This document shows, piece by piece, positions 2,320 through 18,833 of a stretch of DNA of 20,362 bases. Numbering within the stretch: the first letter of the stretch is position 1; every line of letters begins with the position of its first letter. The notes beneath the pieces were generated by a model, which was not told the origin of the DNA, did not search any database, and was given only the letters and a program-made list of their open reading frames with translations. Location of the stretch: the IMG/VR virus record IMGVR_UViG_3300025011_000225, positions 1 to 20,362 of that record. One strand, written 5' to 3'. Both the position numbers and the translations under genes were made by a program. This DNA is from a virus.

Positions 2320-4134
2320 TTACCTAACCTCCGATCCCTGATCGTACTGCACATTTAAGGAAATAACACTCATCTCCTCATCCAGTACATTATTGCCGAA
2401 CCTAAATTGAAAATAGTTAGCTCGTTTGGACATCCTCTTCCTCTTTAGCACAGGGAAAAACGATGTATTGAATGTAAAATTGACAAAGCAAAATCCAACA
2501 AAACTGAACGCGCTCGTTTGCATAATCAATACAACATCGCTATTACTTTTACGAGAACGGAATGAGACGAGTGTTGAACCCCTGCTCATTGGTTTAGCGA
2601 GTAGGCCTATCTTATTGATCACCTTGACCATGTTCGGCGAACCTGCGTTTTCCTCGCGCAAGTCATACCATGCGTCAATCGCCACGCCGTCATCATTCGC
2701 AATTAATGGGTCGAATTGATAAACGATTCCATCAGTGTTACTGCCGAAGCAGAGCGTGTTGTCGATTACAACAAAACATGATGCAGGAATGTTTGTGTCG
2801 AATAGCCATGCGTTGAGTTTGTAATCCCATATATAGCAGACATCATTAATACAGAGTCCGTAGTATCCATCATGGTTGTAGGATACTGCATTGGTTAAAT
2901 TACCTTCTTGGAGGATGCCTAAGTCTGTTCTGCCTGAACCCGATTTGTTTACTAGGTCGCTTATGTCGTTAATGGATAGTCGATTATTGACAGTGGTATT
3001 GGATAGGACTTGCATTACTCCGTTGCTCGTAGAGGCACATACAACCGTGTTGTCGACCTCTTGAATGGAACTAGGTATGTCACTGCCCTTTTCGAGATTG
3101 ATGTCAGCATAGGGGAATATGGGGTAGGCTGTGCCATCTGCATAAGAGAGGTATCCATGGCCCTTGCTGTGCGAGACATAGAGCAGGTCGAAGATGTGAG
3201 CTAGTCCCGTGACGTTGCCCGGTACTTTTTGTACTGCGTCATCCGGGAAATAGTCAGCGTTATAGTTTTCTCCGTATAGGCGAGAGTGCCATATTAGATC
3301 GGGATAGTTGGGGTTACCAGAGAAGAATACTGTTGCTTCTGCTTTTCCTCCGTAGACCTCGGCGTGTTTGCAATTAAGGATTAGCGCAGGGGTGGTGAGC
3401 GATGCCTTGAACGCTGTGATTATGACGTTGTCTGTTCCGATGGTTGGAGCAATGTTGAATGTGACTACACCTGTTGTACGGTTGACTGTGAAGTTTGTTG
3501 TTTCGACCATGGATACGCCGTTGACTATGGCTGTTATGGCTGTTGCGTCGAGAGAGGTATATGGGAGAGTGTAGGCTGTTGCTGTGCCTGTTGCAGAGAA
3601 CGAGGTACGAAAGCCGGGGGATATGATGTTAAAAGCTTCCTGGGAGGTTCCATAGTTAGGGGAACCTGTTGGCGAACGACCAATGAGAACTAGGGGGATG
3701 TAACCGACGACATCAGCGCAAGCAACCCCATTAAAAGACAGGTAGTTGGTTCCGTTGTGTATATACAGGGTGTCGCTGAGAACAAAAAAAGAAGCCTTAG
3801 CGTTTGCTAGGCCCGACTTGATCTCGACAGGTTGGTCATCTGATTCTTGGGTATAAAGCTTTGTTCCGTGGGCTATGAGACGAAATTTTGTTCCTGATGC
3901 TTTGACGTAGGGGGATATGCCGTTGATGCCACCTGCTCCGAGGGATGTTGGGTATAGACGGGAGTAGCCGGGACGTTTTCCTATTGTGCCATCACGGATA
4001 CGGACGTTAACGCACTCTGGCGTTTTGTTGATTGCCAGAAGGCTAGGATTTGACCGATAGTCTAACCCTCCAGAAAAGTCAGAGTAAGTTAATTCGCGGG
4101 CAGTCGAAGGAAAGGAGGGTATTTTTATCTGCAA
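2320..4134 (-). CDS. Tail stabilisation / tubular-type protein
   Basis: A 604-residue protein starting at TTG 4132-4134 with GGAGG seven bases upstream; the nearby ATG (4137-4139) opens only a four-codon frame. The N-terminus reads FSGGLDYRSNPSLLAINKTP, then a Cys-containing strand and a G-K-R-P-G-Y motif (about 53-58). That opening is typical of large beta-propeller-like phage proteins of the tail knob or stabilisation type in short-tailed phages, which close the portal after packaging. Many Gly/Ser/Thr-rich strands and Trp/Tyr repeats through residue 480 fit a propeller. It follows the connector-like gene apart from the inserted HNH cassette. Subunit assignment is inferred. Confidence 0.65.
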   Translation of the reverse strand: MQIKIPSFPSTARELTYSDFSGGLDYRSNPSLLAINKTPECVNVRIRDGTIGKRPGYSRLYPTSLGAGGINGISPYVKASGTKFRLIAHGTKLYTQESDDQPVEIKSGLANAKASFFVLSDTLYIHNGTNYLSFNGVACADVVGYIPLVLIGRSPTGSPNYGTSQEAFNIISPGFRTSFSATGTATAYTLPYTSLDATAITAIVNGVSMVETTNFTVNRTTGVVTFNIAPTIGTDNVIITAFKASLTTPALILNCKHAEVYGGKAEATVFFSGNPNYPDLIWHSRLYGENYNADYFPDDAVQKVPGNVTGLAHIFDLLYVSHSKGHGYLSYADGTAYPIFPYADINLEKGSDIPSSIQEVDNTVVCASTSNGVMQVLSNTTVNNRLSINDISDLVNKSGSGRTDLGILQEGNLTNAVSYNHDGYYGLCINDVCYIWDYKLNAWLFDTNIPASCFVVIDNTLCFGSNTDGIVYQFDPLIANDDGVAIDAWYDLREENAGSPNMVKVINKIGLLAKPMSRGSTLVSFRSRKSNSDVVLIMQTSAFSFVGFCFVNFTFNTSFFPVLKRKRMSKRANYFQFRFGNNVLDEEMSVISLNVQYDQGSEVR

Positions 4135-4159: not shown

Positions 4160-4180
4160 AAAAGCACTCTATATGAGTGC
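4160..4180 (-). terminator. Short terminator at the end of the HNH gene
   Basis: The leftward transcript carries GCACTC-ATATA-GAGTGC followed by TTTTCTTAT. The hairpin overlaps the TAG stop (4169-4171) of the endonuclease gene. It closes the cassette just before the binding site of the tail gene at 4134. Confidence 0.6.
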
Positions 4181-5200
4181 TAGTTGTTGGAATCCGTTAT
4201 GATAATTAAGATATTCCAAAATGGTTTTTTCTCGTTCCTTGGAATAGTATTTGAATTTTGGATACCATACTGAGAAAAGTTTTTTCCCCTTACTACTGTT
4301 GCAACTTCCACATGCAGGGATTACATTTTCAACGGAAAGCTCTCCATTTTTCGCCAGTGGATGGAAATGGTCTTGATGTAGTGTTTCCCCATCTTTTGCA
4401 CTTCTTCCGCAATAAGCACACTTTCTACCAAAATGGTTTAGCGTTATGTCCCATTGCTCGTTCGTCAATGTAGCCTTGGCATTTTTCTTTAATGTCCTGC
4501 GTCTTTGCCCGGACAATCTCCTCTTTTCAGGGTTTTCCTTGCGCCACGCTATAGAGTTTTTACGAGCCCTGTCTTTATTATTTTCAAACCATTTACAGGA
4601 CCTAATTATGGACACTCCTTCGTGTTCGATATCCCACCTCTTGGACCTCAATAATATTTTGTCTCTATTTTTTTCATAGTATATATCCCATTTTTCTTTC
4701 CTATTTGGATCTGCATATTTCCAGGCTTTTTTACTAGCCCTATTTCTTTCTAGGTTATTACTAACCCAATTATTAACGCGTGATCGCTCACATACCCTGC
4801 ACACTCCTTTGAAACCATCAATAGATCCACTAGTTCTTTCTCCAAAATACTCATTTGTTAATGGCTTCTCAATCCCACATTTTGAACATATCTTATGTCC
4901 TTCTTTTACAATTTTCTTGGGCTGAGTGAAATTATAACCAGCGCATTCCTTACATGCGGCAACGAGTCTGTTAGTATAACTATTAAAATGGAAATGATAT
5001 TCGTTAGCAGGAAGTTCGCGCTTGCACTTTGAACAAAATTTATAACCTTCCCTTGCGATCGGTTTCTGAAAACATTTAGCCCCCATGCACTCCTTACACG
5101 CAGAGACTAGGCCATCCTTAACATCAGATCGTGCGTAGAAGTGAATCTTATCCGATGGCAAACTACGTTTACATTTTGAACATACCTTGAGTTTAGGCAA
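4169..5200 (-). CDS. HNH homing-type endonuclease with three zinc ribbons
   Basis: A 343-residue protein starting at TTG 5198-5200, with AGGAGGG nine bases upstream. Three N-terminal zinc-ribbon units have paired CxxC motifs at C7/C10 with C35/C38, C56/C59 with C83/C86, and C105/C108 with C134/C137. A basic middle (about 140-235) repeats W-K/R-x3-N units of the kind that contact DNA. The C-terminal HNH nuclease has C261-x2-C264, H275-x-D277-H278, N292 and C297-x2-C300-N301. Such enzymes cut phage DNA at a target and spread by repair. The gene splits the connector and tail genes and carries its own promoter, leader and terminator. Target site unknown. Confidence 0.9.
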   Translation of the reverse strand: MPKLKVCSKCKRSLPSDKIHFYARSDVKDGLVSACKECMGAKCFQKPIAREGYKFCSKCKRELPANEYHFHFNSYTNRLVAACKECAGYNFTQPKKIVKEGHKICSKCGIEKPLTNEYFGERTSGSIDGFKGVCRVCERSRVNNWVSNNLERNRASKKAWKYADPNRKEKWDIYYEKNRDKILLRSKRWDIEHEGVSIIRSCKWFENNKDRARKNSIAWRKENPEKRRLSGQRRRTLKKNAKATLTNEQWDITLNHFGRKCAYCGRSAKDGETLHQDHFHPLAKNGELSVENVIPACGSCNSSKGKKLFSVWYPKFKYYSKEREKTILEYLNYHNGFQQLALI

Positions 5201-5231
5201 AACAAAACACCCTCCTACAGGCTTTTTTCTT

Positions 5232-5294
5232 CTTCCTAGCCATTCGGGTAGCGTGGGGGACTAGGAAATCCCCCATAGCAAGGTAGCTACTCCC
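5232..5294 (-). ncRNA. Folded leader RNA with predicted pseudoknot before the HNH gene
   Basis: The 5-prime leader of the HNH transcript folds well by eye. An outer stem pairs bases 5286-5294 with 5246-5252 (GGG-A-GTAGC with GCTACCC, one bulge). An inner stem pairs TGGGGGA (5269-5275 complement) with TCCCCCA (5254-5260 complement). The eight-base hairpin loop TTTCCTAG (5261-5268 complement) is complementary to CTAGGAAG (5232-5239 complement) downstream, with seven Watson-Crick pairs and one G-U. GTAGC/GCTAC elements occur several times, which would allow alternative pairing. I cannot match it to a known RNA family. Confidence 0.5.
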
Positions 5295-5311
5295 TACTAT
5301 TCGCTACTTAT

Positions 5312-5341
5312 AGTATACCACTTTTCAGGCATAATTACCAA
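5312..5341 (-). promoter_or_regulatory. SigA-like promoter for the HNH cassette
   Basis: On the minus strand TTGGTA (5336-5341), an 18-base spacer and TATACT (5312-5317) form a plausible promoter. The -35 box overlaps the last codons and stop of the connector-like gene. Transcription would begin near 5305, just upstream of the folded leader. Confidence 0.5.
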
Positions 5342-6243
5342 TTATTGAAGTTCTCGATCGTCCCATTTTGCTCATCAATTGTCGGACTAGATTCGGTCAT
5401 AAAGGAATCGTATTGGTTAATAAGGGTTAAACCCTGAGCTTGCTGGCCTGTACTAAACAACCAACTTCCACTTGAGAAGTAAGATAAGTACGAATGACCC
5501 TCTATGGGTGTTTCAGGAATATCCGTATCCAATACCAATGGGTCTGGCCTCTTAAAATAATGCACGTCAAATGACCCACTATAAAAATAGTTCAAAACTA
5601 AATTTTTCTTCTCAATACTATAGTCGATGAGTGTACTGTGTTCTCTGTCGTCTCCGTTGACCACAATCTTATTGAGTGAAATATAATCACCGGGTAATGG
5701 ATAGTTTACATACGGCTTAAATTTAGGAACATCATCAGCATTCGCAAAGGAATAAAAATACAAAGCTGTTCGGCGTATGTTATACGGATAATTTCCAGAA
5801 AAGCGTATGCGAATATCATTGGCTACATTCGATGCGGTAATCAATCCCTTGTATTCAGTAAAGGATGTTATTCCTGTAATTGTGATAGTAGATAGAGTGG
5901 TCCATACTCCTGCGATATTTTCCTCGATATAAGCTACGCAATCCTTGTCGACCTCAAAATAATAACTCTTTGCGCTCGTCGTACTAACTGTGTAATCCTC
6001 GTCCAAGTGCTGAACGATATTAAATGAAGAGTACATATTTAATAGATTTGGTATGCTTTTCTGAGTAATGCTATAGACCGATTCGACAGGAGTAAACTGT
6101 AGGCTTTTGTAATAACCAGTGTTAATAAAATCCGTCATGGCTAATCGAGCATCTGCATTGTCAGACAAGGCGATCAATTGTCCGTCCGCGCTGTACGTGT
6201 TGGCGAGCTTATATGCTAAATCCCTTATCTCTCCAAGATTCAT
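5335..6243 (-). CDS. Head-tail connector / tail adaptor-like protein
   Basis: A 302-residue protein starting at ATG 6243 behind TAGGTGGTGGTG. The N-terminus (MNLGEIRDLAYKLANTYSAD, then a helix with D-F-I-N-T-G-Y-Y near 38-45) has the helix-turn-helix layout seen in phage adaptor proteins that dock under the portal. From about residue 60 to 240 it is rich in aromatic beta strands, unlike small adaptors, so it may instead be a tail-knob protein. Position after capsid genes and before the 604-residue tail protein supports a connector role, but no exact family is recognised. The stop at 5335 overlaps the HNH promoter. Confidence 0.55.
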   Translation of the reverse strand: MNLGEIRDLAYKLANTYSADGQLIALSDNADARLAMTDFINTGYYKSLQFTPVESVYSITQKSIPNLLNMYSSFNIVQHLDEDYTVSTTSAKSYYFEVDKDCVAYIEENIAGVWTTLSTITITGITSFTEYKGLITASNVANDIRIRFSGNYPYNIRRTALYFYSFANADDVPKFKPYVNYPLPGDYISLNKIVVNGDDREHSTLIDYSIEKKNLVLNYFYSGSFDVHYFKRPDPLVLDTDIPETPIEGHSYLSYFSSGSWLFSTGQQAQGLTLINQYDSFMTESSPTIDEQNGTIENFNNW

Positions 6244-17738: not shown

Positions 17739-17975
17739 ATAACCAGCACACCTCCTTAATATCTCACCGCAAGCCCTACAATCAACCCTAAGCCCACTAC
17801 TAAGTAATCCGATAGCAATCTACTCAATGACTTAATAGCACTTTTAAAACATTGCTTATATAGAGCAACGCAAAGACAAAATAAACTTAACAATATTTGA
17901 TAAATGCCATTGCATAATTCAATGAGCTATGTTATTGTTATTCCATCGAACAAAAATAACGAGGAGGAAACAACA
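17739..17975. promoter_or_regulatory. Divergent intergenic region
   Basis: This 237-base stretch lies between the leftward and rightward blocks. Besides the rightward promoter at 17910-17938 it contains an inverted repeat TTGCT-N7-AGCAA (17852-17868), a possible repressor site. A leftward frame with a hydrophobic end exists at 17761-17900 but has no binding site. A leftward promoter is expected here, but I could not pick one confidently. Confidence 0.4.
17910..17938 (+). promoter_or_regulatory. Extended -10 promoter for the ArdC gene
   Basis: TTGCAT (17910-17915), 17-base spacer, TATTGT (17933-17938) with TG one base before it (extended -10). It points into the ArdC gene, whose GAGGAGG site lies downstream. 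Confidence 0.5.
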
Positions 17976-18833
17976 ATGGCTAAAGCAACCACTAAGTCAG
18001 CCCAATCAGCACCGAAGCAAAATGTCTACGAAATGGTAACTGAACGCATCATTAAAAAATTAGAATCAGGTGTTATCCCTTGGCATAAACCTTGGAACTC
18101 ATCCGGTGCAGTAGCTTGGGATACCCAAAGAGAATATCGCGGCATCAATGCAATGCTACTTGAACCCGGCGAATATGCTACCTTCAATAAAATCAAGGAA
18201 TCAGGTGGCAAGGTAAAAAAAGGAGCTAAAGGCCAAATGGTAGTATTCTGGAAAATGTTCGAGAATGAATCAGATCCCGATAAGAAAATCCCCTTCCTGC
18301 GCTACTTCACGGTCTTTGAAATCAACACCCAGGTCGAAGGAATGAAGTCCAAGCGCAAAGAAGCAGTAGCCAACGAACATAACCCGATTGAATCAGCCGA
18401 GCAAATAAAAGAAGCCTACCGGAATTGCCCTCCGATAAGCTACGCGCCAGGTAAAGCCTTCTACCAACCCTCCAATGACTCAATAAGTGTACCAGATATT
18501 AATGACTACAACAACCCCGAAGAGTTCTATTCCACCATGTTCCACGAAATGGTACATAGCACAGGACATAAGTCGAGATTGAACCGGGCCGGGATAACTG
18601 GGATTGCAGCTTTCGGAAGCGAAACCTACTCTAAGGAAGAATTAGTCGCAGAGATTGGAGCAGCGATGCTTTGTACGGTCGCAGGAATTGACCAAGCAAC
18701 CTTTGAAAACTCCGCATCTTATGTCTCATCATGGCTTAGAGTATTAAAGGGAGATCCCAAGCTCGTAGTATTCGCAGCAAGTCAAGCGCAGAAAGCAGCC
18801 GATCACATCCGGGGTATCAAGGCAGAATATTAA
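17976..18833 (+). CDS. ardC: ArdC-type antirestriction protein
   Basis: A 285-residue protein starting at ATG 17976 behind GAGGAGG; the upstream in-frame ATG at 17904 has none. Residues 15-115 are the ArdC N-terminal ssDNA-binding domain: YEMVTERIIKKLESGVIPWH, W-D-T-Q-x-x-Y-R-G-I-N, and GGKVKKGAKG (78-87) before V-V-F-W-K. Residues 180-280 are a zincin-like metallopeptidase domain with HEMVH at 190-194 and a possible third ligand Glu at 222 (EELVAEIGA). ArdC proteins bind single-stranded DNA and protect incoming DNA from restriction, usually as the first gene expressed. It opens the rightward cluster. Confidence 0.88.
   Translation: MAKATTKSAQSAPKQNVYEMVTERIIKKLESGVIPWHKPWNSSGAVAWDTQREYRGINAMLLEPGEYATFNKIKESGGKVKKGAKGQMVVFWKMFENESDPDKKIPFLRYFTVFEINTQVEGMKSKRKEAVANEHNPIESAEQIKEAYRNCPPISYAPGKAFYQPSNDSISVPDINDYNNPEEFYSTMFHEMVHSTGHKSRLNRAGITGIAAFGSETYSKEELVAEIGAAMLCTVAGIDQATFENSASYVSSWLRVLKGDPKLVVFAASQAQKAADHIRGIKAEY

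Follow-up and report, generated by a model that had tools for sequence, protein, structure and literature searches.

In translational riboswitch platforms, access to the Shine-Dalgarno (SD) sequence is set by mutually exclusive pairing of an anti-SD strand, and a three-way junction combined with a pseudoknot from its third loop (L3) is the topology of flavivirus exonuclease-resistant RNAs (xrRNAs). In T4-like phages, homing endonucleases are known whose translation is held down by structure at the ribosome-binding site (RBS). Specifically, the RBS of I-TevI lies in a hairpin that represses translation, which is undone by an internal late promoter; such a hairpin has been shown for Aeh1 mobE and implicated for T4 segB (PMC3014915). 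The int-alpA RNA, finally, has been placed among putative small RNAs in published work. Its Rfam entry (RF02996) carries the type 'Gene; sRNA', with a model of 71 positions that ends at the pseudoknot strand.

The leader described here lies in a 20-kb phage fragment (the window, meaning the whole stretch of 20,362 nucleotides that was analysed) that encodes a capsid protein and a portal protein weakly similar to that of P22. Two structural genes on its minus strand flank an HNH homing endonuclease gene and the leader of 131-134 bases that belongs to it (Table 1). We propose that this leader is probably a cis-acting translational switch carried by a mobile nuclease cassette. Transcription would start at helix P1, and the RNA would fold into a three-way junction that displays the anti-SD-like loop L3. 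In the ON state, L3 would pair with a decoy strand 20-30 bases 5' of the SD, forming a pseudoknot and leaving the SD free, and in the OFF state it would pair with the SD within the loop of the SD hairpin.

Table 1 Features of the HNH cassette and its leader in the window, with the evidence for each
Feature	Position	Strand	Evidence or remark
HNH homing endonuclease gene	4169..5200	-	343 aa, TTG start, Pfam HNH 4.6e-11
SD hairpin, SD in its loop	5204..5228	-	helix 4: 85.5% paired, 9 of 9 pairs changed on both sides
SD UAGGAGG, proposed alternative partner of L3	5211..5217	-	7 bp including two G-U, -6.7 kcal/mol
Pseudoknot strand CUAGGAAG, SD mimic pairing with L3	5232..5239	-	-9.1 kcal/mol
P1 3' strand CGCUAC	5248..5253	-	fold and covariation
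P3 3' strand UCCCCC	5255..5260	-	fold and covariation
L3 apical loop UUUCCUAG, anti-SD-like, proposed switching strand	5261..5268	-	covaries with pseudoknot strand and SD
P3 5' strand GGGGGA	5269..5274	-	P3 92% paired and covarying
P2 3' strand CCUUGCUAU	5275..5283	-	fold and covariation
P2 loop AGUAGCUA, self-complementary core	5284..5291	-	palindrome count across P2 loops
P2 5' strand AUAGUAGGG	5292..5300	-	fold and covariation
P1 5' strand GUAGCG	5302..5307	-	P1 95% paired and covarying in alignment A7
Extended -10 promoter TGGTATACT (TGN-TATACT)	5312..5320	-	sequence; the start it sets is the 5' edge of P1

On the minus strand the element begins at about 5308 and ends at the start codon (5200), which makes it longer than 5232-5294, the span marked in a first-pass annotation. 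The three-helix junction occupies 5307-5248 (minus strand), and the entire eight-base loop of the third hairpin (GGGGGA-UUUCCUAG-UCCCCC) pairs with 5239-5232; the nested hairpin whose loop that annotation had found complementary to a downstream strand is indeed there, on the minus strand. The folding energy of the 131-base leader is -45.2 kcal/mol, against a mean of -34.9 for dinucleotide shuffles (z -3.1, 2 of 200 shuffles as good). Together with conservation at the insertion site and the covarying pseudoknot of distant relatives, both described below, this puts the structure of the leader well beyond chance and bears out the earlier reading of a pseudoknotted leader linked to the HNH gene. 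The alternative pairings proposed at the same time stand in part: more than one pairing is possible, but the GTAGC/GCTAC elements singled out for it can pair in the window sequence without being conserved, and the actual alternative partner appears to be the SD, which had not been named. A GTAGC/GCTAC switch was accordingly rejected, the P2 loop being GTCATGAC in one same-site copy (L003) versus GTAGCTAC in the window and highly variable in other leaders.

In nearly all leaders that were found without the promoter in the search, TGGTATAAT or a near variant stands at equal spacing, a count that excludes 61 motif-scan loci, themselves selected by the promoter motif. The promoter precedes the whole element here, whereas that of I-TevI is internal and late. 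As in the T4-type cases, an SD hairpin lies before a homing endonuclease gene in the window, and structure at the RBS is predicted to hold translation down; theirs, however, are simple hairpins, whereas here a loop of a pseudoknotted junction holds the anti-SD strand, which also has a decoy partner.

Five related contigs (L010-L014) lack both leader and HNH gene, and in them the stop codon of the upstream gene directly abuts the start region of the next gene (L011 and L014 being alike at the insertion site), so that leader and HNH gene together represent about 1.2 kb inserted between genes. Four other contigs (L003, L007, L008, L009) carry cassettes at the same site. Their complete HNH proteins are 35-67% identical to that of the window and the HNH genes behind the leaders are only 49-71% identical at the DNA level, whereas the DNA of junction and pseudoknot is 88-99% identical among the same-site copies (four other leaders). 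It looks as if the reading frame had been exchanged or had diverged while the leader was held. The window protein has several CxxC motifs N-terminal to its HNH domain; across the same-site cassettes the number of these N-terminal CxxC modules varies, and QQLAL ends all complete HNH proteins. Elsewhere in the window, on the strand opposite the structural genes, 17904-18833 encodes an ArdC-like antirestriction protein (ArdcN and MPTase-PolyVal).

Homologues were sought by a two-step covariance search (models R1 and R2) and a motif scan of viral contigs. Over 50 distinct relatives came out of the covariance searches, almost all of them immediately 5' of homing endonuclease genes, which are of the HNH, GIY-YIG, LAGLIDADG, Vsr-like and NUMOD types. 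R1, built from five leaders, found copies elsewhere in the same phages (L132, L133, L134), each before another nuclease gene, and further matches before HNH genes of other phages (L147, L135, L157, L148, L152). R2 added leaders L136, L145, L151, L186 and L173; its E-values are rough and include at least one false positive (L315). This match, in genome G155, was judged spurious, being a terminator-like stretch with no nuclease. The motif scan gave 61 loci, most with the full element. Among 40 scanned downstream genes, 34 have a nuclease or homing-associated domain, namely HNH (several types), GIY-YIG, LAGLIDADG, Vsr/DUF559, NUMOD3/4, AP2 or CapR/DUF723, and six (L285b, L283, L255, L291, L299a, L268) have none. 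Named examples include phage D6E, whose leader precedes an HNH gene between two baseplate genes, and Dulem virus 33, with a canonical int-alpA match before an endonuclease.

The sub-group to which the window leader belongs was seen only in related metagenomic phages. Named phages searched at the DNA level gave no match to the complete cassette, and the strict leader pattern occurs in none of 84,980 species genomes. HNH relatives in genomes mostly have the HNH core alone in common, with no leader, and the HNH genes of Bacillus SPbeta-type, Lactococcus, f2b1 and Sporosarcina phages have none either; the model gave weak matches at three of these genomic loci (L068, L070, L101). Two Bacilli genomes show further arrangements. 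In G109 (L313, 1501-2474), an int-alpA RNA lies directly 5' of a LAGLIDADG gene, itself just after a terminase-like gene. In G157 (L314, 1-3061), an insertion splits a tape-measure gene after EAEAG; it consists of an int-alpA-type leader at 1501-1561, slightly under the cut-off, and a DUF4379/CapR-type nuclease, with a group I intron match at 2392-2661 (43.1 bits, E 2.9e-8, under cut-off). Leader, nuclease and intron match together indicate that the leader serves intron-borne nucleases too.

Searches of Rfam returned no match to self-cleaving ribozymes, HEARO/omega RNA or known riboswitches, and none to any guide family, so the earlier suggestion of a guide-like or ribozyme-like RNA is not borne out. 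That the annotation did not recognise the RNA as a known riboswitch agrees with this result, but the element is not wholly unknown, since sister leaders fall into Rfam int-alpA. Specifically, L305, L299 (twice), L258, L288, L250, L313 and L348 score above the int-alpA cut-off, and R2, which was seeded by the window's group, matches L299, L305, L250 and L288 at the coordinates of their int-alpA matches. Through such intermediates, the window RNA appears homologous to int-alpA. The contig of L305 also has an Rfam GP20-b RNA at 3441-3499 on the minus strand (46.1 bits, above cut-off).

The window leader shares with int-alpA the P1-P2-P3 three-way junction and a P3 loop that pairs 3' of P1, and most viral relatives also have the junction letters UAG and CGAAAAG. 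The window leader contains an AUAG, probably paired within its longer P2 (in the int-alpA consensus, a junction UAG follows P1), and no CGAAAAG or CGACAAG (CGAMAAG) joint between P2 and P3; bridging leaders (L134, L300:5287) combine a window-type P1 with a retained CGAMAAG joint. Judged by its predicted pairing, the window copy represents a divergent branch whose junction has mostly given way to additional base pairs in an extended P2. As it gives no int-alpA match at the gathering score and none on 5140-5345 even at E values up to 10, and lacks CGAMAAG, we call it int-alpA-like rather than a proven int-alpA member. Two differences concern int-alpA as a whole: Rfam treats it as a trans sRNA, whereas here it is read as a leader at the 5' end of a gene, in most cases one for a phage homing endonuclease, and the SD hairpin and the L3:SD pairing extend past the Rfam model. 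Canonical int-alpA RNAs are present in 39 of 369 Gammaproteobacteria genomes, and none of the ten genes scanned behind them (L316-L345) has a Pfam domain, which means that nucleases are not the only genes with this leader. We know of no earlier description of int-alpA as a translational leader, an impression that leaves its original description aside.

The evidence that carries the proposed switch is covariation. In alignment A7 (53 distinct rows), all 30 modelled pairs changed on both sides, which answers the call of the first-pass annotation for a covariation check on homologues. Paired cells make up 88.8%, against 46-49% when partners are slid by 1-3 columns; the rows were aligned so as to fit the structure model, but this fit alone cannot explain the pairing because the slid controls fall to background. 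Among distant relatives, loop and strand have changed together to CUUCAA/UUGAAG, GCCUUAG/CUAAGGC, UUCCUCAA/UUGAGGG, UCCGA/UCGGA and CUCUAA/UUAGAG. Across 56 non-redundant leaders, whose start codons and, in part, loops were set manually or with a script, L3 matches its own pseudoknot strand with z 16.8 and its own SD with z 11.2 (0 of 5000 permutations each), and a reversed-loop control gives z 2.9 for the pseudoknot and 0.5 for the SD. With the set reduced to a single sequence for each of the 44 loop classes, L3:SD still reaches z of about 10, a test that removes the dependence due to shared phylogeny only in part. The gammaproteobacterial int-alpA set gives z 5.2 for L3:SD and 5.9 for L3:pseudoknot (0 of 5000 each), with its reversed-loop SD control itself raised to z 2.9.

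Both L3 pairings are read from complementarity. The two targets are purine-rich, and part of the L3 signal may reflect selection for a pair of sites that resemble ribosome-binding sites. Variants that are not SD-like weaken this account. SDs leave the AGGAGG consensus as L3 changes, for example GAUGAAGGG with L3 CUUCA (L148), AAAGGCGG with GCCUU (L136), CCUUGAGGGG with UUCCUCAA (L134) and UACAGAGG with CCUCUGUA (L259). The sequence of Aeromonas phage 62AhydR11PP has AAUAGACAG before the AUG, which is hardly an SD, and the UAGAC in it complements the P3 loop. The two duplexes have median energies of -7.85 (pseudoknot) and -7.3 kcal/mol (SD), the pseudoknot being stronger in 37 of the 56 leaders; they are thus similar in strength, as a switch would need. 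At the level of sequence statistics, these comparisons establish how the RNA folds, including its pseudoknot and SD hairpin, that L3 covaries with either partner, and that such leaders go with many kinds of homing endonuclease; we infer that the two L3 pairings are alternative, mutually exclusive states. The earlier suggestion that the leader gates translation of the nuclease appears probable, given that L3 covaries with the SD, and the predicted effect of the switch is to limit nuclease synthesis.

What might set the choice of L3? Transcription yields the pseudoknot strand ahead of the SD, and L3 usually pairs more strongly with it, so that the pseudoknot, and with it the ON state, would be the likelier default. 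The nuclease protein is probably not the trigger, since one leader type serves unrelated nuclease folds. A host factor or ligand at the conserved junction, or homodimerisation of the RNA via the palindromic P2 loop, fits better. A metabolite or ion bound at the junction (UAG, CGAMAAG) would make the leader a riboswitch, which we hold to be possible though doubtful. The int-alpA consensus and its matches keep the junction letters while the helices vary freely, and the element is of compact, aptamer-like size and contains a pseudoknot. However, the junction conservation of the viral leaders stems partly from the search pattern itself, and the window's group has turned the junction into base pairs, which a strict ligand switch could hardly survive. 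The leader would share with translational riboswitches the mutually exclusive anti-SD pairing that decides SD access; unlike them, it has a single-stranded SD mimic as the competing partner, is associated with selfish nuclease genes and has no known ligand. A ligand would in any case refine the switch explanation rather than oppose it.

For homodimerisation, the P2 loops are informative. A palindromic 4-mer occurs in 20 of 23 distinct P2 loops of at least five bases (7.4 expected; 0 of 5000 shuffles reach 20), and the palindromes vary (AGCU, UGCA, AAUU, CAUG, CGCG, GGCC, GUAC, GAUC); in P3 loops such 4-mers are rarer than expected (4 of 42). This self-complementarity suggests loop-loop homodimers. 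On the widest reading, the leaders would form a widespread class of switches in selfish nucleases of all folds, toggled between SD mimic and SD by P2-loop homodimerisation, with nuclease synthesis going down as leader copies build up and with int-alpA as the same device; we consider this full picture unlikely.

Two accounts without switching fare worse than the proposed cis-acting switch. The junction-pseudoknot might be a passive 5' stability element that shields the 5' end and could stop 5'-3' exonucleases, RNase J for example. P1 does begin at the promoter-set start in most leaders, and a P3 loop that pairs 3' of P1 gives the leader the topology of flavivirus xrRNAs; the likeness is one of topology only, as the leader sits at a bacterial translation start and has no sequence relation to them in Rfam. 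Yet the element is common in Gammaproteobacteria, which to our knowledge have no RNase J, and an exonuclease block would be insufficient because it leaves the L3:SD covariation unexplained, so that we regard this account as quite improbable. Slightly less plausible still is that L3, pseudoknot strand and SD are alike merely through an origin from SD/anti-SD-like repeats. The loops are pyrimidine-rich and the targets purine-rich throughout, and some tests give slightly elevated values for reversed loops, but permutation between leaders preserves composition and z is still 11, SDs leave the consensus together with L3, and the signal survives the use of one sequence per loop class. That the RNA is a trans-acting small RNA whose position before nuclease genes is incidental, as its Rfam type would have it, is hardly credible, with a gene start a few tens of bases past the pseudoknot in nearly all members, a covarying SD hairpin in between and an L3 that matches that same SD.

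Taken together, the findings give int-alpA, an sRNA in Rfam, a testable function. Loop, decoy and SD covary three ways, which amounts to a strong natural record of a switch between alternative pairings and pinpoints the strands to mutate. Additionally, the relatives suggest that HNH, GIY-YIG, LAGLIDADG, Vsr-like and NUMOD nucleases travel with a common regulatory RNA. Such a shared leader, probably an on/off switch that restrains the selfish nuclease genes, bears on how these nucleases avoid harm to phage and host.
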